The position numbers and the translations under genes were made by a program. Below the pieces are notes generated by a model, which was not told the DNA's origin, made no database searches, and worked only from the letters and a program-made list of their open reading frames with translations. From contig OZ020514.1 of the NCBI GenBank assembly GCA_963971425.1, positions 26,462,602 through 26,526,601 of the forward strand: a stretch of 64,000 nt of DNA, given 5' to 3'. How positions within the stretch are numbered: the first letter of the stretch is position 1; each line of letters starts with the position of its first letter. The stretch comes from Bryoerythrophyllum caledonicum. Its lineage: Eukaryota; Streptophyta; Bryopsida; Pottiales; Pottiaceae. Shown piece by piece: positions 6,007-58,107 of the stretch.

Positions 6007-6252
6007 ATGAGTAAATATAATGAAAGACTAGTTGAGGCCTGAACGGCAGAACTACAATCGGTGCATGTCTATGTAATATGACTAGTATCAGTCAAGTTGT
6101 TTTCAAGATGACTACAAACAGTCACTATTCACTCCTGTAATGTGATTACTGTCAGTCATATTTTGCACAGCACGTCTTCAATGAGTACCTTCTTTGTGTG
6201 AACAACACTTAACACATGGACACACTTGTCATGCACGTGGATGAATTTGCAG

Positions 6253-27939: not shown

Positions 27940-28255
27940 TTGATGAGCCCTTTTATATTTAAAAGAATTTCAATTCTCCTTGTGGAATACACATTACCTA
28001 AAAATATATATAACGAGTTTCAAATGATGGTGCTCAAAAGTGGAAAAAAAATTGCACACACTACCTCTCTTCGAACTAAACTGTCCCCATCACTTAGAGG
28101 TGCAATGAATTCAAAAAGGCAATTCCACACACTTTAGCTCCACTTGACCTAAAGTGTGCACCATTGCTAAGTACACTGAACTAAATAAGAAGATTTGCTC
28201 ACACTTTAGCTCCACTAGAGCTAAAGTGCGACCCAACATTTACTTTCTATCATTC
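27940..28255. repeat. Copy 1 of a ~300-bp repeat with CTTTAGCTCC palindromes
   Basis: It shares with 33,235-33,545 an AT-rich lead (CCTTTTA..AAAAGA.TTC..TTCTC/AC), a GTGGAA block and two TTTAGCTCCAC..AGCTAAAGTG palindromes followed by GCACCATYRCTAAGT. It lies 3' of the minus-strand DUF7869-type gene. Confidence 0.6.
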
Positions 28256-30615: not shown

Positions 30616-30993
30616 CTGCATTCCAATGATATAAATATTAAATAACCATGACAAATAAGATTGGGTAAATATCTTGTAGGAATAGACATCAATGAAGAAG
30701 CATAGGAAGAGGGTAATTAATCTTGAATCGAGGTAAAGGTCTGGCACTTAAAAATAACTATGATTCAAGTGAGTTGACATTGTAAACCAGGCAAATTTAG
30801 CTTGACTCGAGGTAAACTCATGCGGTATTTTATGACAAGTATAAAATTTCATGCGATTAGTTTTAATCCGAATATGAAAATTATCTCACCCTTGACAATG
30901 ACAATTAAGCCCGACCCAACCTAAATTAATGACTATCAGACTCATTGTCATTTTATCTTGAGTCGAGGTAAACAGAAATAAAAAATAAGGTAT

Positions 30994-31250
30994 GACAGTT
31001 TAGCTCAAGTCGATATAAACTGTCCTTGGAAAGAAGGAAAGCCGACTCGAGCTAAACTGTCGATACATTATAGTAAGACAGTTTAGCTCGAGTTGAGCTA
31101 AACTGTCAATAGATTATAGTAATACACTTTAGCTCGACTCGAGCTAAACTGTCCTACCTTCTTTCCAATGACATTTTAGCTCGACTCGAGCTAAACTGTC
31201 CCTGGAAAGAAGGTAAGACAGTTTAGCTCTAGTCGAACTAAACTGTGCTT
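30994..31250. repeat. Cluster of six TTTAGCTCGAGTCGAGC-type palindromes
   Basis: Complete or near-complete copies lie at 30,994-31,024, 31,077-31,107, 31,124-31,154, 31,170-31,200 and 31,217-31,246, with a half copy at 31,041-31,061. The copy at 31,170-31,200 sits within a larger hairpin, because CCTTCTTTCCA (31,156) pairs with TGGAAAGAAGG (31,203). They lie between the DUF7869-type gene and the telomere-like tract. Confidence 0.9.
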
Positions 31251-31865
31251 CCGTGATTCTCGGCGTCTTTTTAGGGATTCATACGGTAAAACTCTTCAGC
31301 CTGTGAATCTGACTCTCTGTGTACTACAACCCAAATCTTTCTGTCAGTCGTCAAGAAACTTGCAGTGATGCTTCAAAATCACAGTAGCAACTGGAACCAC
31401 CGCAACAACCCTACACACTGTCACATCCTAATTGCTAGAGACTGTGCACGGAGAATGCAAGAAGTATACATTATGTACCTTATGAAGAAGACAACTAGTG
31501 CGTTGTTGCCTCGCGCAAGCGCCCTGCTCAACTATGCGCAACCTATAGATGTTACCCTCCTCAACCTCCGACAGTTGTTCTACCTCCAAGCCTCTCCACA
31601 ACAACCTTGCACAACAACCAAAGTGAGAAGGAATGAAATGAAGAAAGTTTTTGAGGATCGGCGAGGTCGCTCACGGACACACGACCGTTTCAGAATTGGC
31701 GGGAGGAAACTTCAGAATTGGCTGGGGGACTTTTCCACAACCCCTAAAAAAGTGCAAATTCAAAATCTTAGCGGGAAACTGAATCAACTATTTCCTGGCT
31801 GACTAAAATAAGGAAGAGTACATACCTCGAATCTACTCGCACATGCGAGTTATATACAAGGTTTT
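31251..31865 (+). other. Open frame without recognised domain upstream of the telomere-like tract
   Basis: An open frame of 145 codons runs from 31,365 to 31,802. It is rich in Arg, Leu and Gln, with no motif I recognise. It could be the leader of a divergent transcript or chance. I do not claim a gene. Confidence 0.2.
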
Positions 31866-31875
31866 GGGATAACGC

Positions 31876-32002
31876 TCAGGGTTTGGGTTAGGGTTAGGTT
31901 TAGGGTTTAGGGTTAGGGTTAGGGTTAGGGTTTTTAGGGTTAGGGTTTAGGGTTTAGGGTTTGGTATTTAGGTTCAGGTTTAGGGTTCAGGGTTTAGGGT
32001 CC
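31876..32002 (+). repeat. Interstitial telomere-like repeats
   Basis: About 125 bp of degenerate TTTAGGG and TTAGGG units (GGGTTTAGGG, GGGTTAGGG) on the plus strand. Both 7-bp plant-type and 6-bp units occur, with GGTTCA/GGTTTGG variants toward the right. Unique sequence on both sides shows it is internal, not a chromosome end. Confidence 0.93.
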
Positions 32003-36500: not shown

Positions 36501-37394
36501 TCGCCCGAGTCCAGCACGCAACCAACAGGGCCCGACTCGGCTGAAGGAAGGCGGGACCACAGTTTCGCCCAGGAGCATGGCAGGACCACCTTCGCCCAAG
36601 CCCCGGGACCCACCCGGCCCACTTTTACCCGTGGACCACTGCAGCTGAGTCTCACTCTCGAGACACAACAGAGCCTCTGAGAAGAAGACTATACGAGGCC
36701 AACAGGATGAGGAAAGACCGCACGCAGCTGAGTCACACTCCAGCTGAGTCACACCCAAGAGGCACAGCAGGGCCTCTCGAAAGAAGACCATACGTGGGCA
36801 GCAGGAGGAGGAGAGATATCAGTCAAAGTAAAAGTGACCAGTACAGAGGGAGAAGAGTAGGAAAGGACAAGGTTAACCTACAACCATACAATAGCAGAAG
36901 GAGGCCACTAGTACAAGTTGTATCCCAGGAGGATCTCAAGCCCAAGCCTATTGCTACAAGGAGGTCCTACCAAGTTACGACCTGGTACTATAACACCCAA
37001 GTGAAGCCCACACAATCAGGTCACAGCTCTCTACCTCTTTCCTTGCTAATTGCTAGTTTCTTACACCACAAGGTTTACGTTGCAAACCTATGGATATGTA
37101 TTCAAAGCTTAATATCAAACATATTTTCTCGGGGAGGTGACCAATGTTATGGCACCTCCCTTGTGTGTGTGGGTATAGTAAGCACTAAGCATTTCAAACT
37201 CCTCCCCTCCCACTTAGAACTATTAGAAAGTAGGAGTCCAGTCAAATGCTTGCAATTCTACATAGATACTATATACCCCTTCTTGATCATATTAACTTCA
37301 CCAAGCCCTCAATGTATGTTGAGGGGAGAAGTTAAGGACAAGATGATAAGGGGTAATGATGTAGCAACCTTTTACACTCCTCCTAGTAACATTC
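33546..37394 (+). other. A/C-rich leader-like region with probable introns, unresolved
   Basis: A/C-rich blocks alternate with pyrimidine/AT-rich blocks that end in AG. Examples of the AG ends are 34,144, 35,791, 36,009 and 37,071. GTAAGC follows an A/C-rich block at 35,142. This looks like a spliced 5' leader of the retroelement ORF1 at 37,395, or an older degraded gene. The best coding-looking frame (35,221-35,700, with DISSLPTAQFTLIIVVENH and SDVARIARRSSSGA) has one stop and no recognised domain; 34,600-34,960 in another frame is similar. Introns in a non-LTR element leader would be unusual. I do not claim a function. Confidence 0.3.
36642..36812. repeat. Imperfect ~72-bp duplication
   Basis: CAGCTGAGTCTCACTC at 36,642 and CAGCTGAGTCACACCC at 36,741 each start a segment continuing with GAGACACAACAGAGCCTC-like and AGAAGAC.ATACG blocks. 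The copies are offset by 99 bp and about 80% alike by eye. An extra CAGCTGAGTCACAC lies at 36,725. Confidence 0.75.
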
Positions 37395-38993
37395 TTGCTC
37401 TTAAATACTTACAGTATGGATGCATCTACAGCTACTCCCTCCAAGCGACTCTTTGCCGACGTTGTAGAAGACTCATATGCTGTGAATGTGTCTCAAAGGA
37501 CCCTATGTATTGCGAATTCCACCCAGAAAAAGGTGAAGGCAACAAGTTTGCCTCTCACCGAATATTGGTTAGGGTTTCACACCATGAACACTCTTGCAAG
37601 AAACAAAGGAAACTCTAAAGTCCCCATTGTTGCTATAGAAGAATTAGTAAAAGAAGGTCTTAGCCCCAAAGAAGCAGCTGAAAGCTTCGAAGCAATACCA
37701 TCATACTCATTTGTCCCACAAATGGAATGGTCATCAAAAAGGCTAGATGGGAAGGTGGGCAACCACTTTAATCTCACTCAACTTCCAAGTAAAGTTGAGG
37801 TAGATGAAGATGGCTTTGCATTGGATTACCAAGTTTCAATCCACTTTGAACTTGGTGATCAAATATGGTCAAAAGATGTAGTAATGGATATGACAAAAGC
37901 AAGGCTAAAAGAGATGGAAATTCCCCTTGGCACCAAGATTGGTGAACCAATAGCCATTTTTTGCTACCATCAATCTGATAAATGGAATGGTGGTATCAAA
38001 TTACATCTAAAAAACCCGAAGACGGATGGGAAAGGGCTATTACAAGGATTGAGACCCTTCATCCTCACTTTGGATGAAGGGATTCCACACAAAGGAAAAA
38101 TATGCAAAACATATGATGCCCTAGCCTTCTCACACCTTCTATCGGTCAAAATATCCGGTCCTAGCCTTGTGAATAGAGAATCGCATGACTTGCATGAGGA
38201 GATTGTGAGAGATAGTTTTGCAAGAGGACATGACTTTGAGGTCACGAGTGTTGAAAAGAAAGTGTTATTTGAATTTGCATGGGTTAAAACCCCCTCCCCG
38301 GTACAAGCGGCCAAAGTCAAAGACTACAAAGTCTCATTTGATAATGAGATCTTTGTGCCGGTTGCCGCAACCCGGAAGATGGATGAGGATGAGATTGCCA
38401 AAAAGAATTGCCTAATTTTTATTGCAAAAAACCTCAATAAAACAAAAAGTGAAAAAGAACTAGTTGAGGGGATAAAATCCTTACTCGGGGATGAGAATGT
38501 GGTTGATACATTCTTCAAACTCGAACACGGGAGGCATGTAGGAACTTGCAACATTCAATGCCTAAACGCAGCGGTGTATAAAAAATTTGTCAAACAAAGC
38601 AAAAAACTCCATGGCAAATACATCATGTTTACCCCCCACCCCAAGAGCTTAGATGGTAGTAACAAACCTAGCATAGATGAGTTAACAAGGCTTGGGTTCA
38701 CGGATGTAAACTCGGCCGTGGCAAATGTAGTAATTGCCATATAGAATGGACCAAACAATAGCAACGGTGTCACCCTTCAACAACTTCGGAAAGAAATGAA
38801 GACCATGAAAGGAGAAATAGTGGAAGAAGCTAGACAATATGCGGATCTAGTACAAGCAAATACCATCAAATCACTAAGGGGGGAAATGTCGACCCTTCGA
38901 TCTCAACTAATTGCCACCATCAGGGTGGCAGAAACTCAAGCATCAGAACGGGAGCAAAGAGTGATTGAGAACAAGATAGATACGTCAAACTAA
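37395..38993 (+). pseudogene. Retrotransposon ORF1: RRM-like domain then coiled coil, split by TAG
   Basis: The first part (449 codons, TAG at 38,742-38,744) ends with a beta-alpha-beta pattern, NCLIFIAKNLNKTKSEKEL.. and HVGTCNIQCLNAAVYKKF, like an RNA-recognition fold. Central strands (DYQVSIHFELGD, EPIAIFCYHQSDKW) have no family I recognise. After the TAG the same frame continues (LQQLRKEMKTMKGEIVEEA) into a heptad-like coiled coil and stops at 38,993. RRM plus coiled coil suits an ORF1 protein that binds the element's RNA and self-associates. The stop is probably a nonsense mutation, since the second part keeps a coding character. Confidence 0.7.
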
Positions 38994-39074
38994 TAGTGAC
39001 ATACAACGCTATAATTAATAAAAATAAAATATTATATATTTATACTAAAATATATATTATATACCCCAAAAAAA

Positions 39075-39241
39075 CATAGTATATATATATACTACTAAAC
39101 AAACCAAAAACAAAACAAAAAATAATATAGTATATCTATATACTATTAAACAAACCAAAAACAAAACAAAAAATAATATAGTTTATCTATATACTACCAA
39201 ACTAACCAAAAACAAAACAAAAAACAATATAGCTTATCTAC

Positions 39242-39270
<29 letters not shown>
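39075..39270 (+). repeat. 51-bp tandem repeat (in-frame 17-residue unit) and CAA run
   Basis: The TATAG word recurs with its G at 39,079, 39,130, 39,181 and 39,232, exactly 51 bp apart. The unit includes ACCAAAAACAAAACAAAA. In the ORF2 frame it encodes a Lys/Thr/Asn-rich 17-residue repeat (NNIVYLYT.KQTKNKTK), then (AAC)n as poly-Asn. This frame is open from about 39,055 to the TGA at 39,406. Confidence 0.9.
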
Positions 39271-39272
<2 letters not shown>

Positions 39273-39360
39273 AAGAAAAGGAAAATACAAAAATAATATT
39301 AGTGCAAGACAACAACAAAAACAACAACAAACACAAAAACAACACTCCATATTCCTCCCA

Positions 39361-39438
39361 CTAGTAACCATAAATACTACTTATTACAAACTACTAATTA
39401 TACTTTGAGGAAACATAGAAACTAACCCCGGCCCAATG
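39361..39438 (+). other. 2A-like peptide motif before ORF2
   Basis: In the ORF2 frame, codons 39,409-39,435 read GNIETNPGP, immediately followed by the ATG at 39,436. This fits the 2A consensus D(V/I)ExNPGP except Asn for Asp. Upstream codons give a hydrophobic helix-like run (YYKLLIIL), as in 2A peptides, but TGA at 39,406-39,408 lies between them, so the motif could act here only by readthrough. 2A motifs make ribosomes skip a peptide bond and occur at the N-terminus of ORF2 in several APE-type non-LTR families. Confidence 0.8.
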
Positions 39439-41675
39439 CCAAATGTCTTCCACAACCATCCAAAAACACACAAAAGATTATCAAAAATATATTTTATTCT
39501 GAATACTATAAAACTATACCTCGAATACCAACACCTAGCATCCTCCTTTGCACCACTTCTAAAAAATAATCACACATTTCACCAAACTTTTTCCACCCTC
39601 TACCCCAACATTTCCCGCTACATACACCAAAAAGCCAACCATCCATCCACACATATTTTATTCGCCATAATTACCACCCTTAACCCATCAATAGACGAAT
39701 GCAACAATATCACCAACCAACATTCTACCAACACAAACCCAACACATTGGACAAAGATATTACTAAATACCCTATCCTCCCTACATAATCCCCCTGAAAG
39801 ACATATAGACATACACCACCCATACACAAAATTCCTAGAAGAAAACCAACACCTTTTTGAACACAAAACCTCTCTACATAATGACCTATACAACTTTATT
39901 CATAGCCAAACTCCACCCCCTTCCCCCAATGAACTACAACCAAAATTTCCCTACTTCCCACATAATCTCATCCTTGAAGCTCTTAGATGCTTTGAACCAA
40001 TTCATGCCTACACACACCCTACTCCGACACCCACCCACATCTCCCCTCCACTTTGCAACCACGACAATACAGACAATAGAAACACATATATAACTACATG
40101 GAACGCCTCAACATTAAATACTGCTTTACCATGCATACACAACCTAACCACCCACACCAACACTCCACCCGCCATAATTGCCATACAAGAAACTAAAATA
40201 ACTGCTACTAAATCCAGAAGATACATCCAAAAAACATTCCCAGATTACAAACTTATAATTAATAACACTCATTCTCTCACACGATGTATCCAACAACGAA
40301 GGCCATATACACCGACAAGAGGAGGCCTACTCATGCTCATACATCAATCATATGCCTTCCCCGGGAACATTACTAAAATCCCCACCCCGGCCAATATATC
40401 ACCATATCTTCAAATTATTGAAATTACTAACCGACCCCTTCAACCATGGCTCATTCTTCACCTATACATGCCCTCACACATAGAAGACTCGAGGCTTATC
40501 CCGGAAATCCAAAATTCCATCACTTCACAAATAAATACACATACTAACCATACAATAATAATAGGCGGAGACTTTAATCGAGATATTGCCCTTATTGGAC
40601 GACAAAATGGAGGGGTTTCTACCCCCCCAATGGACATAGACTATCAATGGCAAAATTATATAGATAACCTAGGGTTATATCTAATCCCAACCAATACACA
40701 ATACTCTCGCCAAGGTGGACTCAATTACACACACACCAGTCTAATTGATGGATTTTACATTAGAACATCTAACCATACCCGTTATACATCTACCACAAAT
40801 ACCACAACCAACTTAAACTCGGACCACTTCCCAATCCAACTCAATATACCTCACAACACCCTTATAAGTAGACCTCCCACACCCATCAACTTAAATGATA
40901 CTAAAATACTAAATCCCATCCCAAAAGAAAACCTTTACAACTTTAATACAATATTCTTTGAAAAAAACTCACTACAAATAGACTCCCTTATAGATATTCT
41001 TTCTAACCACCAACACCTCACACAAATACAATGGGAAGAAGCTTGCACGACTCTTGACAAACTTGTTAATGAAATTTCTACTATATTAGAAAAAACTTGT
41101 AAAGCCCCCCCAATTCCACAACTAACACCTAGAACCTCAAAACAAGGAGGATATCTCCCGAGAAAACTAGCTAAAAAGTGGAAACAACATCTTGCCACAT
41201 ACCACACCATTCGTAAAACAATTTACACCGCTAAAACTAATCAAAATTGGCAAATCCACCCCATAATCTCCGAACTACAAAACCTCCGTCACCCTCATAT
41301 CCCACAATTACCACTACCTAACACTTCTCACGAAGAATGGCTAAAAGATATTGCAATCATTGCAAAAACTGCCAATAAAGAAGCTCGGAAAATTACCACA
41401 AAATATGCAAGAGAATGTGTCAAAAAAGCCATATCTTAGTATCGTCAACTATACGAAACTAGCCCAAAAAAGATTAATAGAAAAGTCTTTAAAAATAACA
41501 CAAACCTGCCACTAGATTACATCTTAGACCAAAACAATAACATTCTAACCGGCCCTGATGACATCGCAAACGAAATACATTTTCAACAATCCATTAACAA
41601 TAGACCAACCACCCCCCCATGTCACTTCCAACCACAACACACATCAACATGCACGTGCGGAGTTAGGCAATACCC
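39436..41675 (+). pseudogene. Retrotransposon ORF2 part 1: N-terminal extension and APE-type endonuclease
   Basis: About 210 residues of His/Thr/Asn-rich N-terminal sequence of unknown role precede an exonuclease-endonuclease-phosphatase fold: ITTWNAS (Asn), AIQETKI (Glu), IIGGDFNRD (Asp, Asn), SLIDGFYI and LNSDHFPI (SDH). All main catalytic positions are present, so target-site nicking would be its role. TAG at 41,437-41,439 interrupts it; the frame continues to CHFQPQHTSTCTCG and RQYPWP near 41,660, a Cys-rich stretch just before the expected RT domain. The RT fingers and palm are then missing. Confidence 0.88.
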
Positions 41676-42587
41676 GTGGCCGAAAGAAGTACCACACCCT
41701 ACATATACCTTGGAATAAACCTAGTCCCATCGTTAAAATGGAAAATTCAAATTCACGCTACTACTACAAAACTTATTAAACAATACAAGGAACTTACACT
41801 ATGTCCGGCCACATTGCAACAAAAAATAAAAATGATTGATACCGTCATACGACCGGGTATCTCATATAGTTTCTATGCGATCCCTTATTCCATGCCCGCC
41901 ATAAACAAACTTGATAAAAAAATCATAGCCATACAAAAGAAAATATGCGGACTCCCTAATTGCACGCCCAATATCATAACACAACTCCCCCACAAACTAT
42001 TTGGATTAGAAGCTTTTTCCCTCAAAAATGCCTATCCACGTTGCATTGGAGAACAACTCCAAAATGCACTTAACGACAAGGGACGACTAGGATTAATCTA
42101 TAGTGGACTCCTTCGGCACATCCTTGCCATTTATGGAGGAGCACAATACCTCCAAAGACTTAAAAAAACTGATTGTCTTTGGTCTCCCATTACCCGCACA
42201 CTTTTTCTACTCAAAACAGAAGGTCAAACATTTCTAAAAAGCACACTAGAAGATTTCCTACTAGGCCCCGCGCCGCTCGAACAAAACTAGGCAAATGAAA
42301 TACATAACCTCCCTAGACTTGACCGACAACTATCCGACAAACTCCTACAAAAACTTTTTTCTGCAAACATTACCGATCTAAAACAAATTACACTACCAAA
42401 TGGAACACACCTCATGGACGACAAGAGCTACAAAACATTCTACGGTACCCCTCACAAACTAATAAAAAGTGCACTAAATATTGCTAAACAATTATTTTGT
42501 CATCCTCCATGCCTCCCTATATGCCCCAACCCTTGCACCACTCACGCCACACCGCGCACACTTAAAGACTCATACATCATCGATTAA
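41676..42587 (+). pseudogene. Retrotransposon ORF2 part 2: RT thumb region only
   Basis: YIYLGINLVPSLKWKIQI resembles the start of the RT thumb in non-LTR elements, followed by KMIDTVIRPGISYSFYAIP. This region joins directly to pre-RT sequence at about 41,675, in a different frame. The RT catalytic core with its (F/Y)xDD is absent. A TAG at 42,288-42,290 and TAA at 42,585-42,587 add breaks. The missing part would be well over 1 kb in a full element. Confidence 0.7.
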
Positions 42588-42714
42588 AATAACATCCACC
42601 ACGACACCAACCTCCCATTAATCCCTCCAAACCCGCCACATTCACGACCATATACCCCCCCCACCACATATATTAAAAAATCCTTCCATACACCCAATAA
42701 ACAACATAACCGCG

Positions 42715-43650
42715 CATAAACATAGAAAGTACATTGACTCTTACAACATAAGCAAACAATATACGACATACCTATGTCATTGGTCCCACAATAACACCAC
42801 CTATGCCAAATGGCTCCCACAAAGAAATATTTTCCCTTGGCACAACCCAAATACTTCCTTACATAACACCGAAATCCTCACACAATACTACCTTAGAACT
42901 CAAAACAATCACTACCTAAATATCATACAGTTACACCACCCTCAAACACAACCTCGAGATAGTAGATTTGTCACGCCACCTCTTATTATCCCCTTCCTTA
43001 ACATCTTTACAACCGAATGCAACCCCGAAACAGACATCCTCGTACAAACAAATACTATCAAAATACAACAAGATAATGCCCACATATACGAAAGTAATGG
43101 GATACATCTAATAACCATACCACTCGCTAGACTACAATGGCTGTGAAACCAATATCACAACGCACTACAAACCACCATTAACATTGAACCAATACCCCAA
43201 ACATTTGAAACCAAAATTGTTTGGCTATACCAAAGATATAACTACCATATACCCAAAAATGACCCCCTTAAAAATGCACACTACACACTACACGATCCTA
43301 TCTTAGACTACCTTATTACATCTCTGAAAATAACACATTCATACTTTTCATCCCCCGTTACATGCTCCACAAAAATCTCGAAATTCTACTCTCCATTCGA
43401 ACGTGATAAAATTTTTGGCTCTCTTGGAAAAGCTTTTGATTATAGATGGAGCGGAATAGGCCTTGCACACCCTCACAACGAAGAAGAAATACAACAAGCA
43501 ACACATTGGGCACGCCTAGCGGCAAACAATGATCCCAACCACAACATCACCATTATTATCACTCTCGACACTCATTAGTACCACAACTCTAACCCACACT
43601 TAGGCCCATTTCCGGACTCACACATCATAGTACTATTTGAAGCCGACTCT
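42715..43650 (+). pseudogene. Retrotransposon ORF2 part 3: uncharacterised domain before RNase H
   Basis: Same frame as the downstream RNase H, with TGA at 43,144-43,146 and TAG at 43,576-43,578. The conserved-looking part (about 43,375-43,650) reads FYSPFERDKIFGSLGKAF, WSGIGLAHPHNEEE, ATHWARLAA, TIIITLD and GPFPDSHIIVLFEADS. The order of a Trp, a HPHN turn, a helix, a strand ending in Asp and an aromatic is reminiscent of the second half of amino-methyltransferases such as phage Dam or PCIF1, with HPHN where NPPY/NPPF would be. That likeness is weak and by eye only. The Dualen of Chlamydomonas carries a cysteine protease; no Cys/His pair of that sort is seen here. Confidence 0.45.
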
Positions 43651-45450
43651 ATGACTTATCAAGAACCCACTATACCTCCGCATATACAAATGCCCCGCCT
43701 TGAACCAGCAACCCTACGTATCCTATGTATACATCACCAAACTCGAGAAATAGGCAATCTGGAAAACCTCACCCACCTCACTTTGATAGCAAAAAATCTA
43801 AACATTAACAAGGTATACACCGCAACTGCCTCTCCCACACCCATTTCAACCCGTGTAAACCGCAACAAAAAATGGTCTAAAACCCCCCACACAAACATCT
43901 CAGCATCACCAATTACCGAACTAAACTTCCCCCTCCCCTACTATCAAATTAATACAAACCTTAAATTCGACCCTAACTTTAGCTACTACACTGACGGCTC
44001 CTTTAAAGAACCAACCGAAGTAAGCCCGGGACATTGGCACCGAGAAAAAGCCGGTTATGGGATATACGATTCAACCAAACAAATTAAATTAGGCAAAAGA
44101 CTACATGGACTCCAAAATATTTTAAGAGCCGAAATGATGGCTATACACAAAACCCTTAAAATAATCACCACTCAATACCCAAACGAACCGGCTCACATTT
44201 TTACAGATTGCGTAAATGTATTATATCTCCTTAATACACACATTAAACACCCTACTTTACACAACAGTCATCCAGATAAAACTATCCTTACATCTATGGT
44301 TGCAATGCTCAAAAACCGTACGCAGATTACCACACGCCACAAAGTCCGAGCTCATGCTAATATCAACGGCAATGAACAAGCCGACAAACTAGCAAAGGAA
44401 GGAAGAGAAAAAACCCACAAGAATGCTGAACACCCATACGAACACGCCCATGCCACCCCATATTACTTCCATAGATATGAATGGCCCTCTATGGGCGAGA
44501 CTCCCGATAAAGGCCCCGTACGATTCTTGGACAAATACCTCAAAAAACATGATCTTATAAATAACCAAGAAAAACTTACAGAAAACTTCCCCAATATTGA
44601 CAAATGGACCGGCAACCCAAACATTCACAACATAATGTCCAACAATTTTTGGAAAAACCCCATAATTACGGATCCACAAATCACATGCCTAATCAAATTT
44701 TGCACCGGACAATACATGGGTAATGCCCGCAAACAACTCTTCTTTGGAATAGAAAGATTTCCTACAATTACATGTCCAATTTGTAACACCACGGACCCAG
44801 ACACATGGCTACATGTCCTACTCAAGTGCCAAAACCCCCATATACACTCACTAATTGTCAAAAGACATAATAAAGCCGTATGGGCTATCCGTAAACTACT
44901 TATATCATCAACCAAATCCCGGTGTTTCATTCTCATGAATGCCGGAACCTTTAATGACAACCCACAAGAAAATACGGTCCCTCGTTGGCTATTACCCTGC
45001 ATCTGTCATACTCAAAGATGCCACTGTAATGCAAGATCCAAACCGGACCTACTATGTGTTAGAGGACTTTCATACAAAGACCCCCCACCAAACCACATAG
45101 ACCCTAGTCTAACCATCCAATTTATTGAATTCACATATTGCAATGATAGATTCTTCCCGGACACTATTGCAAACAAAACAAATAAATACCAACCACTACT
45201 TGACGATATTCAAGCACTAGGATGGTAACTAGACCCCCTCATTGTCATCACCGCGGGTGCTAGAGCCACCACCTTCATCCCCTCAATGACAACCCTTGAA
45301 GAAACATTTAAAATTCCCATCACTTCAATCAAAACCACATTTTCAAATATTAACACTATTGCAATTCAACATGCTATGTCGATACTCCTACATAAACGTA
45401 AACTTGAAAACAACCAACCCCTTCCGGACGCTTTAAACCCCCCTTCATAG
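43651..45450 (+). pseudogene. Retrotransposon ORF2 part 4: RNase H, CCHC finger and restriction-like endonuclease
   Basis: The RNase H domain shows YYTDGSFK (Asp), LRAEMMAIHK (Glu), HIFTDCVNVLYLL (Asp) and HANINGNEQADKLAKEG (His/Asp), a complete set. Then CPICNTTDPDTWLHVLLKC fits the CX2CX(7-9)HX4C finger that precedes the endonuclease in R2-type elements. The C-terminus has SKPDLLCV (PD), IQFIEFTYCND (Glu) and KTNKYQPLLDDI (Lys..KY), the PD-(D/E)XK layout of an RLE. TAA at 45,226-45,228 cuts it, but the frame continues with clear coding character (DPLIVITAGARATTF) to TAG at 45,448-45,450. RNase H removes template RNA; RLE nicks target DNA. Confidence 0.85.
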
Positions 45451-46139
45451 ATCTACACTTGCATTCTGCTTTTCACCGTACTTTCCCTCCCTCTTTTAGG
45501 ACTTTTTGGGACCAAGGGTCCTTTGATATAGGTTACTTGGTACTGGATACATAGTGTCCACCCTCGAAAGGGGGAAGTAGTTCCATACTACTAACCCATG
45601 CCCGGTGAACATGGACTTAGTGGTGGAATGAACGGACACTTGACTCACGCCGGCCTCCTCTGGGGACCGGCGTTCTTCTTCTTCTTGGACACTAAGTAGG
45701 AATCCATACAGTAATTGTAAAATGTACAATAAGTGTAGTGACAAAACTATACATCACCCAATGTCAACTACCACTCTAAATGTCAATCCTAGTAAATAGT
45801 GGAACATAAAGTTTTTTACTTGTGGACAATTAGTTTAGGAAACCTTAATCATGGTTCGATTACATCTTGAGCATCATAGTAAAGAAGGGTTGAGTGCATG
45901 TAGAAAAGCAAGAATTTGCAAGAAAGAGCTTGATAATAATCGGACGTAGGTATGGATCAAACAAAAAATATCAAAAATTGGACAAAGTAGAATGTAAAAT
46001 ATGGAGGGAAAATGAAACAACAAGTAGAAGATTGGAAATATAAGAACATTCTTCTGGAAACGAAAATGAGTAAATAAAGGAATAATCGAAAAGGAAAAAA
46101 CTTAAACATACAATAAATATAGAAATACAAGTAAAATAC
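45451..46139. other. Retrotransposon 3' tail and flank, no gene seen
   Basis: 45,451-45,720 is probably the 3' untranslated part of the non-LTR element. It includes a small inverted pair (CCGGCCTCC and GGACCGGCG, 45,650-45,672) and CTTCTTCTTCTT. There is no poly(A) tail. The rest is AT-rich. Confidence 0.4.
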
Positions 46140-49266: not shown

Positions 49267-49612
49267 CACAGTTTAGCTCGAGTCGAGCTAAAGTGGAACA
49301 TCGATATTGCTCTAATGTCCACACTTTAGCTCGACTCGAGCTAAAGTGGGCCTACACTGTGCACTATTGTCCACACTATAGCTCGAGTCAAGCTAAAGTA
49401 GGCCTCCACTGTGCACATTTGGCCACACTTTAGCTCGAGTCGAGCTAAAGTGCGCTCTCCAGCATGCTCTTTTGGCTACACTTTAACTCGACTCGAGGTA
49501 AAGTGTGACCAACAAAGCACGCTGGAGAGCGCATTTTTGCTTGACTCGAGCTAAAGTGTGGACAATAGTGCACAGTGGAGGCCCACTTACGCTAGAGTCG
49601 AGCTTAAATGTA
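49267..49612. repeat. Array of palindromes folded into a ~240-bp inverted repeat
   Basis: Palindromic cores lie at 49,267-49,296, 49,318-49,348, 49,372-49,400, 49,423-49,453, 49,478-49,507, 49,538-49,560 and 49,586-49,607, about 52-58 bp apart. Spacers on either side of the 49,478-49,507 copy are also inverted: CTCCACTGTGCAC (49,404) against GTGCACAGTGGAG (49,568), and GCGCTCTCCAGC (49,453) against GCTGGAGAGCGC (49,521). The whole block can fold back on itself. It lies about 1 kb upstream of the methyltransferase-like gene. Confidence 0.92.
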
Positions 49613-49825
49613 CGACTAAATACATCTTTGGTTGCGCTAAAGCCGGCTCCAACGAAAGAAATTAACAAAAATTCTCGAAAACTCTCGGTCAAAAATGACA
49701 TGACCTTCCAGTAAAGCCAACACACTTTACCTCGAATCGAGCTAAAGTGTAAGACAATAAACATAAACAACAACTCAAACACAACAACATTCGGACTTTA
49801 AACATTCCAGAAATAAAGTATACCA

Positions 49826-50345
49826 ATGATAACTATGACTTAACTCATGTCAACTTCTCGTTCACCTTTCACAAGTGGGCAAGAGCTTCAGACCCGCTGC
49901 AACCACTTGAGAACCTCGATGAGTGAGGTTCGTGAGTGATTAGAGCGGAACTGAAGCTCTTCCACAGTTTTGAAAATTGAACGAGAAGTAGCCATGAATT
50001 GAATTAAAAAGTCTAGTAAAGTCGTTTGAATGATCAATGTTAGTGCCAAAACTAATCAGCTATGCATTCTATGTATAAGCACTTTAGCTTGAGTCGAACT
50101 AAAGATGCAGCTAACGTTTGATTACAATATTGTTACAGTCGTGTAATTGCAGTCTAGTATCTCAACTCATGTCTACTTTTCGTTCACCTCTCATAAATCC
50201 TGCATAAGCTTCAGTCCCGCTCCAACCACTTGAGATTCTCTAAGAGTGAGGTTCGTGAGTGATTGGATCAGTTTGTAAGCTTTTCCACGGTTTTGGGAGT
50301 TGAACGAAAAGTAGGCATGAGTTGATTGAAAGGGTCTAAGAGAAT
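49826..50345. repeat. Two copies of a ~190-bp fold-back element
   Basis: Copy A (49,845-50,010) and copy B (50,162-50,330) share CTCATGTC.ACTT.TCGTTCACC, CCACTTGAGA and GAGTGAGGTTCGTGAGTGATT. Each ends in the inverse of its start (GAACGA.AAGTAG.CATGA.TTGA), so each forms a ~24-bp terminal inverted repeat. Spacing between copies is about 320 bp. They lie just upstream of the methyltransferase-like gene and may be small nonautonomous elements or duplicated regulatory hairpins. Confidence 0.75.
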
Positions 50346-51969
50346 GTTCTAATTGACTAAATTGTATTGCAGAGTATTATTCACATACTTGAATAACGTT
50401 ACACTTTAGCTCGACTCGAGCTAATCTGTGACCTCGCCGTCCTAATCGGATGATCATTAGAGCAATCTAATATCTTTGCTCTGTTTCGTGTTTGTGCAGA
50501 TCTAAGAGGGACAGGATGGTGTCTCAGCTGCAGCACTTCTTCCAGCCAAAGCCTGTCGACGTTGACGATGACGATGGAGTCGACAACAACCACTTGGATT
50601 GTTGGGAGCTCAAGGACCCATCGATGACACTAAAGTGGACACTTCTGTGGGCGACCTATACGGATCATTTAGTGTTTGGTCAGACCTTCGCTGGTGCTAT
50701 CGTCGATCCCCAGCACATCGACTTCAAGACCAAAGTTACTGATGTAGTCCACGAAGATAACGATCACGTTAAGTTGTCGTGTGCGAGGACCACTGAGTCC
50801 CTAAATCCGTATTTCTTTACTATTGTAGTGAACAATAGTTCATCTCCCTTCTGTATCCAGGATTTAGTCGATTCTCTTAGGTCTTCCAAATTTGAGGAAA
50901 TAGTGACTCAGGTCGAGCATGAGATCTCTCTTAAGAAATGGGAGACTAGTAGCGGACAGCCGCTGAAAGCAAAGGCTGTAGCTAATAAACTGCACGTCAT
51001 TCTATCTAGAATGAGTACCTTTGCCGCTCTAGATAAGGCCAAAAATATCGCAGCAAGACGCCCGATAGAACTTTCAACGGTTCCGGGGGCCGTGACCAGT
51101 AGCCAGGACATGAGTCAAGCGTCGGTACCACTTAGAACACCAGGTGCGGGAACAAGCCGAAACACCCTGCGCAACACGCTGTCTGCTTCCCCCGTGAAGA
51201 AGCGGTCAGCTGCCAAGAAGCCGGAGACCTCTTCAAGAAAGAAGCCGAAGCTCGTATCAGAGGAGGAGTTAGCCAATTCGATGGCCTTTGCACTCTCGGA
51301 GCTCCCTAAGGCGCTCGGATACGGATAGACAATCAACTACAACAACGTCCAACAGATTTACCAAAAAATCTAGACGGAGTGTGAGAGCTGCTTCTTCAAT
51401 GGAGACAAAGAGATGAAGATCGAGCTTGACGTGATGAGGTTGCATAGTGCACCGCCGGAGTGGACGATCCGTGCGTTCGAACCTCGGGGCATGGAGGAAT
51501 TGAAGCATTACTACCTACAAATGCCCGACAAGACGCAAAAGCAGACTCTCTGCGTCATGCCGAAGCTCGACGCTATGCCGACGACTGTTGAGGAGCTCAG
51601 CGACTGCGACTTCTACATCAACAACAGCCAGCACAGCGTTGCTGCCTCAAAGGAGATGATTAATGGCAACGTCCTGGAGGTGATGAGAAGGCACTTCCAA
51701 ACATGGCAATGTTACATTGTCTGGACGCAGGATCCGGAGAAGTTGAGGAAGATTTCCGCGTATTATAATCGCGTGAATCACTTGGTCCAGTTCAAGCCGA
51801 CCTGGGCAACGAATATCCTCGGCTCCCGTGCTTTGTGGATCCAAGCTGGGAGACCAATGCCGAAGCACTCCGCCACAGGCGTTCGCGGGTCTCACAAGTC
51901 AGGTCGGAGAACGGTGGCGGAGATTGCAAATGACAAGAGGTTTGAGGTAATATATCTTAACCAAGGTCA

Positions 51970-52095
51970 TGCACTTTAGCTCGACTCGAGCTAAAGTGCA
52001 AATTCGCTCTATATCTGTACAGTCATATGTATAGATAAGAAATCGTCATTGTCTGCTCATGGGTTGCAAGTTAGCTCGACTCGAGCTAACTTGCA
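51970..52095. repeat. Two perfect 31-bp palindromes in intron 1 with different arms
   Basis: 51,970-52,000 has arms TGCACTTTAGCTCGA around C, and 52,065-52,095 has arms TGCAAGTTAGCTCGA around C. In each, the right arm exactly complements the left, so changes in one arm are matched in the other. Confidence 0.95.
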
Positions 52096-53540
52096 GTATT
52101 TGGACCCTACTGGACATGTTTGTATTCCTCCTATATTGTATACTCAAACGATCCTGCGCAGCCATTTCTTAACGCGGTTCGTGAGCGCTTCGCAATGATC
52201 AACGTTGCGAAGAGCTACGCGGCGCTCAAGAAAGCCGGGAAAGCAAAGGAGCTTTCAATTACGAACAAGGTGAAGATCATCACCGCGACAGATGAGACCT
52301 TCAAGCTCTGGTCCGATGTCATCTCTTTTGCGGCGCATGGCGACCTCATCAACGTCGATTCAACTTTGACACCCTTGGCAAAGTTCAAGCACGCGAAGTC
52401 TTGGGTACCTGAGAAAGATGGAGTCCTGACGCGCGAGTTCTTCAAGTTTCTCGGCAACATGACCGAAGCCGATCACGCGAAAATGTGCAAGCACATTCTC
52501 AATCGATCAGGGCCATCTCGGAAACTGCCCTACCCTAAGGTGGTCATCAAGCTGCCGAATTCTTCGTTGGAGGATTGCTATACAGCCCGGGACTGGGTGG
52601 ATCGGAGGAAGAGGAAGGAGGTCGCTCGGATAAAGCTTCAACTGATCAGGCCGGAGCTGGCCTTCTTCAACAGCACTGGAGTGTACAGTCGTTCAAACTG
52701 GCGGACGTTCAAGAAGAACTACAACGTCAGCAAGGCCTCAAAGCGTGCCGTCTTGGATTGGGGTCCACCGGATTCATAGTACAAGGATTCGAGGCAGACA
52801 CAGTTTCGCAACTGCAAATGTGAAGATCTCTCTCCGTACGCAAAGGAGTTCTTCAGAGTCTTCATCGATGTGTGGTCGCGGTTTGTTTCACCTGTGGGAG
52901 CCCTGCACTTCTGTTCTTACAAGGCGGCAACGAATTCGCTCGGGACGTGGCCTTCGGATTCGTGGAGCAACCTGGGCTGCAATGTGAAGCTCGGCATCAT
53001 CGACTTTCGGAACATCCTTGGGTTCTCTGGGACGGCAACGTCGTCGTTGGAGAGGCCCTTCTTCGACGAGTTCATGACGATGTTCGCATCAAAAGGGCAG
53101 CCTCCCCTCACCGATCTTCCAGCCTGGCTCTTCATTTGCGGCAACGAGCAGTCACACCTTCAAGTGACAGCGTTTGCTGAGGGCCCGTCGTTGTGCCATG
53201 CATACGATGTGCTGCAATCGTAGTATCTTCCCTCCGAGAACGAGCCCCTGGGAGGATACGCGCCAAAGACCAACAACGCTCTCGACCCGGTTCGGCTCCA
53301 CTCCTCTTCAAGAAGGAGCTTACGGTGATCCCGGTCGTAAAGAAGATCTACGCAGCACCAAAGCATGTGTTGTATACGAAGCTGCGGAAGTACAACGAGT
53401 TGGCGTACTCCATGAATTTGAACGAGCTGAGGATGGAGTTCTTCATCAAGGTCCTGGAGTTGTTCTACAAGAGGGGGGATCCTATTGTCCAGCTGTTTGG
53501 CGGGATGAAATTGCTGACTGCGAGTGTGGTAAGCATCCCT

Positions 53541-53780
53541 ACAGTTTAGCTCGAGTCGAGCTAAACTGTTGATTCCCTTTCTGACTCGCGCATAGTTTCA
53601 ATGAGGTCATGCCTATGGTATTGCGTGACACTTTAGCTCGAGTCGAGCTAAAGTGTCGGCTTTTACTTGTATGGTTTTCTAGAAGTCATTAACTGCGTTC
53701 GTATCCTTTGAAGTTGTAATAGCTGAGTTTTCGTACCAGCAATTGTTTGTAGTGAGTTTAGTTCGACTCGACCTAAATTG
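53541..53780. repeat. Palindromes in intron 2
   Basis: 53,541-53,569 has arms ACAGTTTAGCTCGA around G and 53,627-53,657 has arms GACACTTTAGCTCGA around G; both are perfect. A decayed copy lies at 53,755-53,778. Confidence 0.93.
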
Positions 53781-53895
53781 AATCTTGTTCAATCCATTGG
53801 TGTGCAGATGCTGGACCTACAGGCATTCTGCATTTCCCACGACACCGATGAGCAGGACCTCGACGACGCCTTTGAGGTCGCCTTGACGTTGGATC

Positions 53896-55236
53896 GGGCC
53901 GATTTCGATATTTCTGCGTATCACGTCAACGCGGAGATCTTCCCCGAGCTTGGAGATGCCGTTGGAAAGGGGAAGGGGAAAGCCATTATTGACCTTGGCG
54001 ATGAGGAGGAAGATGCGGAGCCGAGCGCTGTGGTTGCGTGCCCGATCTCGAGCACTGTCACTCCGGATAATGAGTCCCAGGACGACTTCGTTGACGCTAC
54101 TCCGCCTGAGTTTCAGAGTGCCTCTCAGTCTGAAGCAGGAGACACAATCGCTTCCTCGCGACAACGACTCGACTTCCCGGAGTTGGATTCGTTAGAGATT
54201 TCCGTCAGGCCTCATTCAGCTCCCACCTTGGGCGCTTCAACCGCTCGACCCGCGGCCAAGAAGAGGAAGGTCCCTAGCGCGAGCGGACGCTCTCCGTTGG
54301 CTATCGTGAGCAACGCTCAGGATGACAGCAGGTTGATCTCCCTTGATAAGAAGCTCGAAGAGGAGGCCACCTGGATGAGGTTGATGGAGTAGCGGCTGGC
54401 GAAGCGCGACGAGGAGCTCAGGGATCTGCAGCGGAGGCGTGACGATGAAATGAAGAGGGACCAAGATCATAGGCATGCCGAGATGATGCTCATGATGCAG
54501 AGATTCATGTCGGCTAATTTGCGTGCTGCCGCCACAACACCACCCGTAGTTAATGCTGCGGTCCCACAGCCTCCCGCCTCACCGGACGGCGGGTATGGGA
54601 GTCCGTCTCGCGATTTGCAGCTACCATCTCTGTCGGGTACCTCCCCCGTCTCCAGTGGGGGTCAATAGCTTCCTGTTCTCCCTTCCCCGCCGGCCCGCCC
54701 GTCCTCCCCTCCGAAGTCGCCCGATCGAGACGAATCTATCGCAGATGTCCCCAGGTCATCGTCAGGTAAGTGTACGTAGTTGCGAGTGTATAGAGGCAGA
54801 GCATTTTGTAAATGTCCAATTTTGTACTCCAGTATTTTTTTGTTAATATTACAGTGCACGGCGAGATCTTCAGCTCGACTCGAGCTAAACTGCTTGACAT
54901 CTAACCACTGTGACTTGTATCCGTGTCCTCTGTGCGCATCCGCTCATAGGGTGAAGTTCTTGAATTTTTTCAGATCTAAGTTTCGGTGATGACGCGATTG
55001 CTCAACCAGTCATAGAAGAGGTCGTCCAAACTGCAGTCCCAGTCATAGAAGAGGTCGTCCAAGTTTCAGCCGTGCTCGTAGACGAGATCAATCATGATTC
55101 TGAGCCACCTCTTCTTGTCCCAGAACCGTGCCCCCAAATGAATGTCGGGCACTCCGGGCCCCTTGACTGCATGCAGGGTTCGTTGAAATTGATGGGTGCC
55201 CGAGACGAAATGCTGCAGGACGATGAAGTTCTCGAG
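53896..55236 (+). pseudogene. Coiled-coil and nuclear-signal linker of the same gene (exons 3-4)
   Basis: Exon 3 continues with an acidic Ser-rich region, RPAAKKRKVPSASG (a monopartite nuclear signal, about 54,250) and a charged helix (KKLEEEATWMRLME, then RLAKRDEELRDLQRRRDDEM) likely to form a coiled coil. TAG codons at 54,390 and 54,666 interrupt it. The donor at 54,766 is phase 1 and matches the acceptor at 54,973. Exon 4 (54,974-55,236) carries a 30-bp tandem coding PVIEEVVQ twice and ends at a GTATTC donor in phase 0. The intron between them contains a half palindrome (54,870-54,893). Confidence 0.5.
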
Positions 55237-55429
55237 GTATTCTTCTAACTCTTTTCGAACTCCACTCTTTCCCCATCACTCCTCCCCATATTTACCTCTT
55301 TCGTTCTACGTATTGTTGATTCGTCGTTGTTAATGAATCTGTAGTAATATTGGTTGTTCTCCTGGCGTTTCCGAACCACGTCGGCGAGGCATCAATAAGT
55401 GGTGCCAGTAATCTAGAAGAAATACCTAG

Positions 55430-56107
55430 AGTCCATCAGATATCGAGGGCAGGTGGTTGAATATTGTGCTGGACCTCAATGGGATTCTATGCACGTGTGA
55501 GCCGTCGTGGCAGGCCTGAGGATCCAGGAACTCTATCCCGTCCATTCACTCGGCTTTGCTGCCGGCCGAAGTAGGCCCTACACTAGTTCGAGTGCGCTTT
55601 GGTTGTGCTGAATTTCTTACAAAGTTGTCTAAGATTGCCACCATCACGATCTGGAGTTCGATGATGGAATCTACAACGCGTCAGATATGTAAATATCTTT
55701 TTCAGCATAGTTCTTCGTACCCTCTCAGGATCTTTGGTCAAGAGAGTTGCGATAGGATTCCCGAGCGTAGAGTCGGTAGCAGAACAATCTACATGAAGGA
55801 ATCTGGCACTCAAAAGGACATCTTCTTGAAGACCTTATCGAGCCATCTCTTCAATAGGTTGGGTCGTGAGTATACTCCGGCAAATACGCTTGTCATTGAC
55901 GACAGCCCGATTAAGGACATGCTCAATTTGCCGGAGAACGTCCTTCTTCTTCCATCATGGTCGTACAAACATGTTGGTGCGAGAGACGATTCTGTATTGT
56001 TGGAGGAATTGCTGCCATATCTCTCTGACCTTCATCAGTTTTCGCGTGGCCTAGTACAGTACTGGGCCGAACATCCCTCTGGTCAGGAGATGTTTTATAA
56101 TGATTAG
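55430..56107 (+). pseudogene. FCP1/NIF-like phosphatase domain, altered catalytic motif (exon 5)
   Basis: After an AG at 55,428-55,429 the frame gives WLNIVLDLNGILCTCE, then FGCAEFLTKLSKIATITIWSSMMEST, KDIFLKTLSSHLFNRLG and NTLVIDDSPIKDMLNLPENVLLLPSW, the NLI-interacting-factor/FCP1 layout of HAD phosphatases. The nucleophile Asp of DxDx is kept but the second Asp is Asn (DLNG), which should block acid-base catalysis. The IDDSP motif is intact. One TGA at 55,517-55,519 follows the first motif. Phase agrees with exon 4, so the domain probably ends the methyltransferase-like protein. FCP1-like enzymes act on phosphoserine, as in the RNA polymerase II tail; the role in mobile DNA is unknown. Confidence 0.65.
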
Positions 56108-56200
56108 AAGACGTGTGGTCAGTCTGCGAGTATCTGGAACGCAATCCAAGCGTCTCAGAATCTCCGCTCTAAATGCCGCTGAGAACGCTTAGATGCCTTT

Positions 56201-56442: not shown

Positions 56443-57350
56443 GATTGTGACTGTCGGGCGTCCATGGATTCCTTGCTAGGCCCAAAGGAGTTCGTTTTTT
56501 CTCTTCGGAGTAAAGGGCTTTTGTTGCACTCTGCTGCAACCGCGCAATCAACCATGGATTATTCGACCATGGCAGTGGACGACGGAGTTGTTGAAAGCCC
56601 TATTGCGCGGGAGCCAATTCATGAAAGGAACAACTCACCTTCGCCGTAGTGGCCTCGTTTAGTTCCTGGCTCCCCGCCTTTAAATCCGGATAATTGTACT
56701 TCAGCAAAGCGTATTCTCTACGACGGTTTAAGGGATGGTACTTCCCAACGCTCGCTTGCGGTGCGTGTTATGATGACCTCCAATTTATTGCACTATTGAG
56801 ATTGTTTGGCCTAGTCAATTTTGGTTTGTTGTTGAGCTACATTGCACTAATGTAGTTTTGGTTCATTTGAGCTTATTTTTTTTGTTGGAGGTTAAATGTG
56901 CTCTGTGGATCTTTCCTTCTGCATTTTAGCTCCATTCGACCTAATGTTCGCTAGGATGGATCTCAATGATTAAATTTTCATGTGTGCTGTGTAGAAGTAT
57001 TCGACCTAAAGTGTATTTCTTTGAATTGTGTGTGGCGCCTATTGTGCTGGAACCATCCGGTAAATGTCTCTGTCCCCGAACTCTCTCAGGAAATGCTGCT
57101 AGAGGCAAATGCTCTCCTTCCCCCACTCGCCGGCACTCGCTGCCCAAATCAAACAATGACGAGGTGCGTAGGCGGGGTTTGTAGCGTCTTCTAGAGAGTC
57201 CATTAATGCAAGAGAATGGCGCAACATGGACAAGGCAACGTCAGAGGGCTTTTTTGAAGACGCGTATAGAGGCTTATGGTGGAACTCCGTAGACCATTTG
57301 ATTAGTGATAGGACGATTGTGTTTTGCCTCGGGGTGAATGAGTGTTGTTT
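56443..57350 (+). pseudogene. Further coding-looking exons after the phosphatase domain
   Basis: After an AG at 56,441-56,442 the frame DCDCRASMDSLLGPKEFVF runs to TAG at 56,647 and continues (LVPGSPPLNPDN). A block at 57,060-57,165 gives NVSVPELSQEMLLEANALL, and 57,200-57,350 gives INAREWRNMDKATSEGFFE and WWNSVDHLISDRTIVFCLG. Their composition differs from the AT-rich flank and suggests a second gene or the 3' end of the same one. No domain is recognised. Confidence 0.3.
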
Positions 57351-58107
57351 GTGACTTTTTTCATGAAGTTTTATAAAAAGCTTGGAATAATGGTACATGC
57401 TTCTTTTAGCGTTACCATTTTTTGGGACATTCGGCTAATTTGGTCCATCCATGTAATGAAATATAGTATTCTTGGTGCATTGTCGATATGCTTTGCACCT
57501 ACAATTGTCTATATATATTGATACTTTAAAGATCATATATCTTCAAAATTATGGAAATCTTCCATTATAACGAATATGGTGTTAATTCTTCTAAATAAAG
57601 TTTGGTACAAGAACTTATAGTTGGAAGTCTGAAAATAGTAAAAAATTGGTCTATACCCTCGAGAGTGCATAGAGGCAGAGGATGGTAATTTTGAGGTTTG
57701 AAGCTCCAAGACATTGAGGATTTTTCTAGGTTATGATCTCAAATCTGGTGCACATGTCAGGGTTGAAATTTGAGTCAATATTTTTTTGTTATAATCATCT
57801 TTGGATCATATAGTTCAAATTAAAAAAAACAAAAAATATATGATCCATGCTTCAATGAACACATAGTGGTAGAAAATTGTAGTTTTGTAACTTCAAGCTT
57901 CTAAAAGCACAATGAATTCTTGAGGACAATTTCCAAATGTTATAATCTCAAAGATGATGCACATCCTATAGATGAAATTTACAACAATACTTCTAGATAG
58001 ATTTAGATAAAAGATCCTACGCTTGAAAGCTTAAAAATTGTAAAGAGTCTGATTCATGCATCTATCCATGCATGGAGGTTAAAAATTGCACTTTACAAAT
58101 CAATTAC
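57351..58107. other. AT-rich intergenic, no gene seen
   Basis: AT-rich with no coding block. A 37-bp segment at 57,553-57,590 (ATAACGAATATGGTGTTAAT at its core) is an inverted match of 27,546-27,582. Confidence 0.5.

Follow-up and report, generated by a model that had tools for sequence, protein, structure and literature searches.

What kind of gene joins an amino-methyltransferase-like domain to an FCP1-like phosphatase domain, and what are the palindromes around it for? The question is raised by a stretch of 64,000 nucleotides from Bryoerythrophyllum caledonicum (contig OZ020514.1, positions 26,462,602 to 26,526,601; hereafter the window), a eukaryotic, transposon-rich part of a 437-Mb genome, in which a first-pass annotation had placed such a gene at 50516..56107, inside a palindrome-rich element. 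Our analysis places it in a transposon that has two genes, of which it is the second, and that is bounded by terminal inverted repeats (TIRs) and a 4-bp target-site duplication. The transposon spans 27561-57583 of the window (30,023 bp), with terminal repeats AACACCATATTC... and the duplication AATT. The gene does lie within a palindrome-rich mobile element, of which the annotated interval falls far short.

The gene belongs to a two-gene transposon

The ends were read in the window and in the other copies. The left TIR, AACACCATATTCGTTATATTGGAAGATTT (27561..27589, + strand), is preceded by the duplication AATT (27557..27560), which stands directly before AACACC, and the right TIR (57555..57583, − strand) is followed by AATT (57584..57587) directly after GGTGTT. 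The sequence TTAACACCATATTCGTTATA is present exactly twice in the window, at 27559-27578 (+) and 57566-57585 (−), with an expectation of 0.01 occurrences at up to 3 mismatches. Two copies from elsewhere in the genome were compared end to end, namely copy A of 22,796 bp, flanked by ATTT on both sides, and copy B of 18,627 bp, flanked by TATG on both sides. From 27558 to 57583, the window is collinear with copy B, except for a gained segment (33602-45685) and a loss of approximately 750 bp in the first gene. Two earlier delimitations were abandoned: the palindrome clusters at 27.5-31 kb and 47-57 kb, at first taken for two elements, belong to opposite ends of a single one that an insertion has split, and a left end near 47110, hinted at by locus L018, was overturned by the end-to-end comparison.

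The flanks of other copies bear the marks of transposition, with a 4-bp flank repeat in 7 of 9 full-length pairs of ends and in 8 of 9 pairs belonging to miniature inverted-repeat transposable elements (MITEs). Locus L009 is flanked by TTAT/TTAT, whereas the stretches retrieved for L010 and L011 did not reach their left ends; among 5 further full-length pairs, the 4-bp flanks match in 3 and do not in 2. The short MITEs read were 8 complete pairs on contig C1 below 10.63 Mb, of 163 or 237 bp, in which the flanks match in 7 cases and differ by one base in 1. The ninth MITE, of 404 bp, is inserted in exon 1 of L028 between GTGT/GTGT, and the corresponding empty site is visible in L014. The duplications vary in sequence (AATT, ATTT, TATG, TTAT, TGAG, AAAC, GAAG, and others). 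The family is very abundant, with copies of 18.6 and 22.8 kb read end to end; an exact 23-base element end is found 712 + 748 times genome-wide (control, 0). At exon 2 of the second gene, 17 full-length copies (counting the query) share 99-100% identity with copy A, and the copy-A subfamily has therefore probably moved recently.

The first gene encodes a DUF7869 protein

The left part of the element in the window carries a broken gene (28547..30716, − strand) with a clear match to DUF7869 proteins (PF25273, E = 2.5e-40), lacking approximately 750 bp of copy B near 30106-30117; it is the probable transposase gene. In copy A, a DUF7869 frame of 956 amino acids lies on the left and the second gene, with its NIF/FCP1-like (NIF) domain, on the right, both read outward from a divergent middle. 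The same arrangement recurs across the genome: 33 of 44 scored B-type DUF7869 hits are accompanied, within 60 kb and on the side predicted, by a scored exon-2 hit (n = 106); every such pair is divergent, and 26 of the 33 are spaced by 8.4-9.7 kb, with a chance expectation of approximately 0.015 per DUF7869 hit. The 11 unlinked hits may lie near exon-2 copies left unscored among the 1,464 exon-2 candidates.

In the alignment of DUF7869 proteins (A, B, and parts of 4 others), acidic and neighboring residues stand out as MD, QxDN and GHTH(D/E)DID, which suggests a DDE-like transposase. Pfam searches with the first gene of the element returned DUF7869 and nothing else. We know of no described function for DUF7869, and the domain is not named in the literature searched, a search that most subscription papers lay outside. 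Genome-wide, there are 3,613 first-look DUF7869 candidates; among the 150 that were scored, many have open frames of approximately 1066-1087 amino acids and probably represent further transposon lineages beside the NIF-bearing one.

Unlike CACTA/En-Spm elements, the element ends in AACACC rather than CACTA, duplicates 4 rather than 3 bp, and tnp2 (PF02992) was not found in its genes; a separate CACTA-like gene with PF02992 is present elsewhere in the window (6202-7926). Its duplications are of varied sequence and not the TTAA target of piggyBac and Kolobok. The superfamilies Sola, Ginger, Academ, and Chapaev likewise generate 4-bp duplications; for their transposases, the comparison consists of the Pfam search of the first gene, which found DUF7869 only, with Repbase profiles outside it. 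There is a fair chance that the DUF7869 lineage constitutes an undescribed superfamily.

The second gene is spliced, decayed in the window, and conserved in the family

The second gene occupies 50516-56182 on the + strand. The annotated five-exon structure is borne out by conserved splice sites, apart from the last join, as exon 5 starts at 55380 and not at 55430. Exon 1 (50516..51946) comprises the N-terminal part, a nuclear-signal-like run, and a ParB-like stretch; exon 2 (52162..53528) encodes a 450-amino-acid domain with an IDFR motif and a terminal motif-I-like FGGxKxLxAS; exon 3 (53808..54765) encodes the end of this domain, an acidic stretch, a nuclear-signal-like KKRKV, and a coiled coil; and exon 4 (54974..55236) is followed by exon 5 (55380..56182) with the NIF/FCP1-like domain (DLNG ... 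IDDSP). The nuclear-signal-like runs and the coiled-coil-like stretch that had been annotated were recognized by eye and have counterparts at similar places in copy A. The intervening introns 1 (51947..52161), 2 (53529..53807), and 3 (54766..54973) contain palindromes at 51976 and 52071, at 53546, 53633, and 53758, and at 54870, respectively. Both splice dinucleotides (GT and AG) of introns 1-3, and the GT of intron 4, are conserved in 9 further copies of the alignment; the two exceptions concern acceptor 2, where L013 reads CAA and the beginning of exon 3 is absent from L024. The acceptor of exon 5 is a CAG just before 55380 in 8 of 10 aligned rows and CAC in the window and L014; the join through CTAG at 55429 fits only because one base is missing near 55436. 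The exon that precedes the NIF exon could not be resolved in copy A. A coding-like conserved block downstream of NIF (56443..56760, + strand; AG before and GT after in the aligned copies) is possibly a further exon: it is common to copy A and to the second organism described below, whose sequence matches L012 with E = 3e-17 and the window with E = 1.8e-6 by tblastn (a small database of five short stretches), and no clear donor was seen in exon 5.

The window copy of the second gene is broken and decayed. Its reading frame is interrupted by TAG at 51326, 51371, 52777, 53221, 54390, 54666, and 56105, that is, by two TAG in each of exons 1 to 3 and one in exon 5, and by TGA at 55517 in exon 5, and single bases are missing near 53301 in exon 2 and near 55436 relative to other copies. 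By contrast with this copy, L017 and L019 have exons 1 and 2 free of stops. Decay of CAG through CHG methylation was considered as a source of the TAG codons and rejected, as relatives hold differing amino acids at these positions.

To follow the gene beyond the window, 20 loci were picked from 150 NIF hits, mostly from the class with frames of approximately 281-292 amino acids. At least part of exons 1, 2, and 3 together with the NIF exon is present in 14 of the 20, so that the proposed linkage of the two domains recurs in homologues; of the others, L018 and L025 lack one part, L020 has only a related NIF exon, and L021-L023 belong to other NIF families. The A-type copies have per-exon identities of 33-47%. 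Between subfamilies, the ratio of nonsynonymous to synonymous substitution rates (dN/dS) is 0.146-0.160 for exon 1, 0.125-0.192 for exon 2, 0.30-0.33 for exon 3, and 0.13-0.29 for exon 5, and the second gene is under purifying selection at this level. Within a subfamily, the values are noisy (0.11-1.18), and against copy A, they are saturated except for one pair (0.155, dS 3.9).

The gene is not confined to this genome. When prokaryote genomes were scanned with the alignment of exon 2, two contigs were retrieved, CADCWO010000243.1 and CADCWO010000269.1, which match the whole query with 58% and 55% identity and come from a bin labelled as an uncultured Synechococcales cyanobacterium. Because their frames break where those of the present family do, and the breaks hold the same palindromes, we take these contigs as eukaryotic. 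CADCWO010000243.1 carries exons 1-3 and then the NIF exon in order, with an open NIF frame and DLNG; the linkage of exons 1-3 to NIF is therefore kept between organisms. The same bin also contains a DUF7869 gene with a frame of 963 amino acids. Contigs L070, L071, and L072 of this bin appear eukaryotic.

The NIF domain carries Asn in place of the second Asp, and the VLDWGPPDS motif is not conserved

The NIF/FCP1 domain is well supported, with PF03031 matching the window at E = 1.1e-14 (54.9 bits) and copy A at 68.6 bits, against a cut-off of 21.8, and DDSP is retained. As had been noticed, the domain reads DLNG instead of DLD, departing from the FCP/SCP catalytic motif DxDx(T/V), and it is fused to unrelated domains. 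DLNG is found in 15 listed loci of the element family, in L016, in the window, and in the second organism, and L024 reads DLNR; the second Asp is thus replaced by Asn in every copy in which the motif could be read, whereas the host-like L001 reads DLDE. In HAD enzymes, the second Asp acts as the general acid, and its replacement makes hydrolysis by the element NIF doubtful; judged from these residues, binding would be more likely than hydrolysis. A second NIF family outside the element (L004-L007 and L023, of which L006 and L023 are one place), with frames of 306 to 669 amino acids, also has DLNG, with the motif sequence unchanged from locus to locus.

The methyltransferase assignment fared less well. 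The VLDWGPPDS motif on which it rested is confined to the window's own lineages: the corresponding site reads LVDQPGEAFF in copy A, LLEQPGEHFF in D (L033), LLEQPGEIFF in E (L034), and LLLEQPGDHFF or LLLDQPGDWFF in the second organism. The best-conserved candidate is instead IDFR, present in 8 of 8 rows of alignment A1, with INFR in L024 and VDFR in the second organism. The 450-amino-acid domain lacks the DPPY-like motif IV of beta-class N4/N6 amino-methyltransferases, and the motif-I-like run at the end of exon 2 (e.g., GDKVLSVYAGSKFLIAS) is altered, reading SAFGGSK in copy A against DPFAGSG. Profile searches of the two domains diverged, with PF03031 matching NIF and nothing above the cut-off for the methyltransferase part in Pfam or PDB. 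Comparison by hhalign of a seven-row profile with nine beta-class methyltransferases (Escherichia coli YhdJ and eight phage proteins; 9 of 10 fetched loci were used) gave a score of 35.6 at motif X and motif I, against 26.0 for the best of 150 column shuffles and 20.0 for the reversed profile, with a probability of 28.5% (15.9% with five rows). This weak likeness hints at methyltransferase descent of the exon-2 domain, short of proof.

The ParB-like stretch of exon 1 reads YINNSQHSVAAS in the window and YIINGQHSVAAS in relatives. PDB searches with exon 2, NIF, DUF7869, and the ParB-like profile returned nothing or matches with E of 0.3 and above. Sub-threshold Pfam matches to HTH_Tnp_Tc3_2 in exon 1 (E = 0.025) and Perilipin_2 in exon 2 (E = 0.0016) were set aside as chance. 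Scans of PHROGs and NCBIfam were of no use, the latter giving one NIF-type match below the cut-off and chance matches, and phage tblastn, Rfam, and tRNA scans yielded nothing useful.

Palindromes lie outside the coding sequence of copies A and B

The palindromes first seen in the introns and the upstream DNA are borne out by counts against controls. In the window, TTAGCTCGASTCGAGCTAA occurs 28 times with up to 3 mismatches and is absent from 100 shuffles; genome-wide, the exact 21-mer TTYAGCTCGASTCGAGCTRAA occurs 4,583 times and the reversed pattern 0 times. With up to 2 mismatches, the core AGCTCGASTCGAGCT is found 22 times in copy A, 24 times in copy B, and 22 times in the window copy (shuffles, 0-0.05). 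None of the 22 sites of A or the 24 of B falls in coding sequence, which makes up 33% and 40% of their length. Placement is alike in A and B, with sites near the left end, 5' of each gene, in the first two introns, and in the interval that separates exon 3 from the NIF exon. In the window, the left subterminal repeats (28036..28254) include palindromes at 28134 and 28206, the left-end palindromes being present also in A and B; one array lies 5' of the DUF7869 gene (30797..31241) and another, with long inverted repeats, 5' of the second gene (49267..50430). Two of these inverted repeats (49842-50000 and 50162-50325) are hairpin-like and approximately 80% alike, and the stretch that holds them recurs in several other copies.

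Palindrome flanks differ by subfamily, with ATTCAGCT at most A sites and TTTAGCT at most B sites. In the second organism, palindromes are located in introns 1 and 2, in the stretch from exon 3 to NIF, and downstream of NIF, and the longer ones have A-type flanks. Each of the 8 short MITEs contains exactly one palindrome, and the 404-bp MITE contains two variant ones (TTTAGGTCGA..., identified by eye). Their retention in MITEs points to a role in movement, and their position 5' of the genes and in the introns to a role in regulation.

A possible transposase-regulator pair and its alternatives

The palindromes are most likely docking sites of an element protein, predicted to serve both transposition and self-regulation. 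As the best overall explanation, to which we give slightly less than an even chance, we propose a DUF7869 transposase and a second-gene regulator, one or both of them binding the palindromes. The DUF7869 protein would cut and join, and the ParB-like/methyltransferase-like/NIF protein, in view of its nuclear-signal-like runs, may be an element-specific nuclear regulator. The second-gene protein, the transposase, or both would bind AGCTCGASTCGAGCT, whose placement is observed; sites near the ends would aid transposition, and those in promoters and introns would allow the element to regulate its transcription or withstand silencing, in the manner of VANC and TnpA. Catalysis has probably been lost from the methyltransferase-like part, which may now read DNA, and NIF with DLNG would probably bind a phosphoprotein, such as the phosphorylated tail of RNA polymerase II, without hydrolyzing it.

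Several observations weigh against this proposal. The DDE case consists of acidic residues in six aligned DUF7869 proteins, and copy B lacks the second of them (QxDN). The ParB likeness is a GQHS motif recognized by eye, exon 1 being unmatched by ParB in Pfam and PDB profiles. Two of the 9 full-length pairs have no 4-bp repeat, and the 8 MITEs fall into two length classes and therefore do not represent 8 independent events.

CACTA/En-Spm elements, with TnpA and TnpD, are likewise two-protein elements, in which one protein binds the subterminal repeats. CACTA elements and MULEs both divide labor between two proteins, and this division, together with MITEs that retain the ends and the palindrome, would suit a scheme in which the DUF7869 transposase alone binds the palindromes and the second protein is accessory, for instance by coupling through NIF to transcription or the cell cycle. 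We regard it as possible though rather unlikely, since palindromes also lie 5' of both genes and in introns, where a transposase alone would have no need of them.

Much less probable is the model put forward in the first-pass annotation, an active amino-methyltransferase that methylates the palindromes of its own element. The order of the parts would fit the beta-class layout, and the hhalign score exceeds its shuffled and reversed controls precisely at motifs X and I. However, the low hhalign probability, the altered motif I, and the lack of any Pfam or PDB match above the cut-off count against it, the missing DPPY (DQPGE or EQPGE in relatives) speaks against activity, and the poor conservation of VLDWGPPDS makes methylation doubtful.

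An endogenous stretch of a large DNA virus would account for the size of the element and is very improbable: the viral-contig scans, each with a few short peptides, revealed no relative, and the inverted repeats, the 4-bp duplication, and the MITEs are typical of transposons. No capsid or polymerase genes were seen by eye among the open reading frames of at least 140 amino acids in A and B, Pfam having covered the pieces of the two genes. A chance pile-up of neighboring pseudogene fragments among repeats, as the several breaks in the window copy might suggest, is refuted by the recurrence of the same order in 14 of 20 loci and in a second organism and by dN/dS of 0.13-0.33 between subfamilies. 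Equally refuted is an intact window copy in a genome that reads TAG as an amino acid: 7 of the 8 in-frame stops before the last TGA are indeed TAG, but codons for E, W, Y, K, Q, and L occupy those positions in copy B and other relatives, exon 2 is stop-free in many copies, and the window also has a TGA and two missing bases.

Among described systems, the VANDAL elements offer the closest parallel to a transposase-regulator pair. VANDALs are MULEs with a 9-bp duplication, and the present element, with 4 bp, is therefore not one of them; to our knowledge, VANC has no NIF or methyltransferase-like domain. According to the Arabidopsis study (PMC5735166), VANC is a further transposon-coded protein that acts on short motifs in the element's own non-coding DNA, with a stronger VANC21 signal over introns, intergenic DNA, and the non-coding termini, and its targets differ among related elements. 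The likeness to our element is one of motif placement, as the VANC21 motif is YAGTATTAY (PMC5735166) against a palindrome of 21-27 bp here.

Other features of the window

The segment gained by the window copy (33602..45685, + strand) is a nested 12-kb LINE-like insertion (LINE, long interspersed nuclear element), with TGGACACTAA as direct repeats at both sides and no counterpart in copy B. It carries endonuclease, RNase H, and PCIF1-like domains, encoded at 39409-45228, and the frames scanned gave no reverse-transcriptase match; the features together suggest insertion of a LINE. The PCIF1_WW match exceeds the curated cut-off (41.1 bits, E = 1.9e-10), PCIF1 being the cap m6Am methyltransferase, and the frame begins with a 2A-like GNIETNPGP. 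Within the transposon, a telomere-like TTTAGGG/TTAGGG run (31860-32000) adjoins the DUF7869 end. Elsewhere in the window (6202-10120, 19266-20174, and 22817-24058), there are CACTA-like (tnp2, DUF4218, DUF4216), Tc-like, and Harbinger-like transposase genes.

Significance for the transposon family

The first-pass annotation knew of no described transposon with this pairing of domains, and our literature searches, which did not cover most subscription papers and Repbase, likewise found nothing describing such an element. We advance, tentatively and as an idea more likely to fail than to hold, a new superfamily of giant DNA transposons with a DUF7869 transposase, AACACC ends, and a 4-bp target duplication, in which a regulator assembled from a ParB-like part, a retired methyltransferase, and a NIF domain that reads phosphorylation would recognize a coevolving palindrome dispersed over promoters, introns, and ends and, by coupling the element to RNA polymerase II, would evade silencing and promote transposition. 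With this element, the known transposons would gain a family that is very abundant and clearly delimited, with an accessory protein that combines a set of domains not found in the literature searched; the element also suggests a function for DUF7869, that of a transposase. The sequence itself shows where the presumed binding sites lie. These sites are short palindromes that number in the thousands and persist even in 163-bp MITEs, which puts the transposon's self-regulation, or its escape from silencing, within reach of a direct test.

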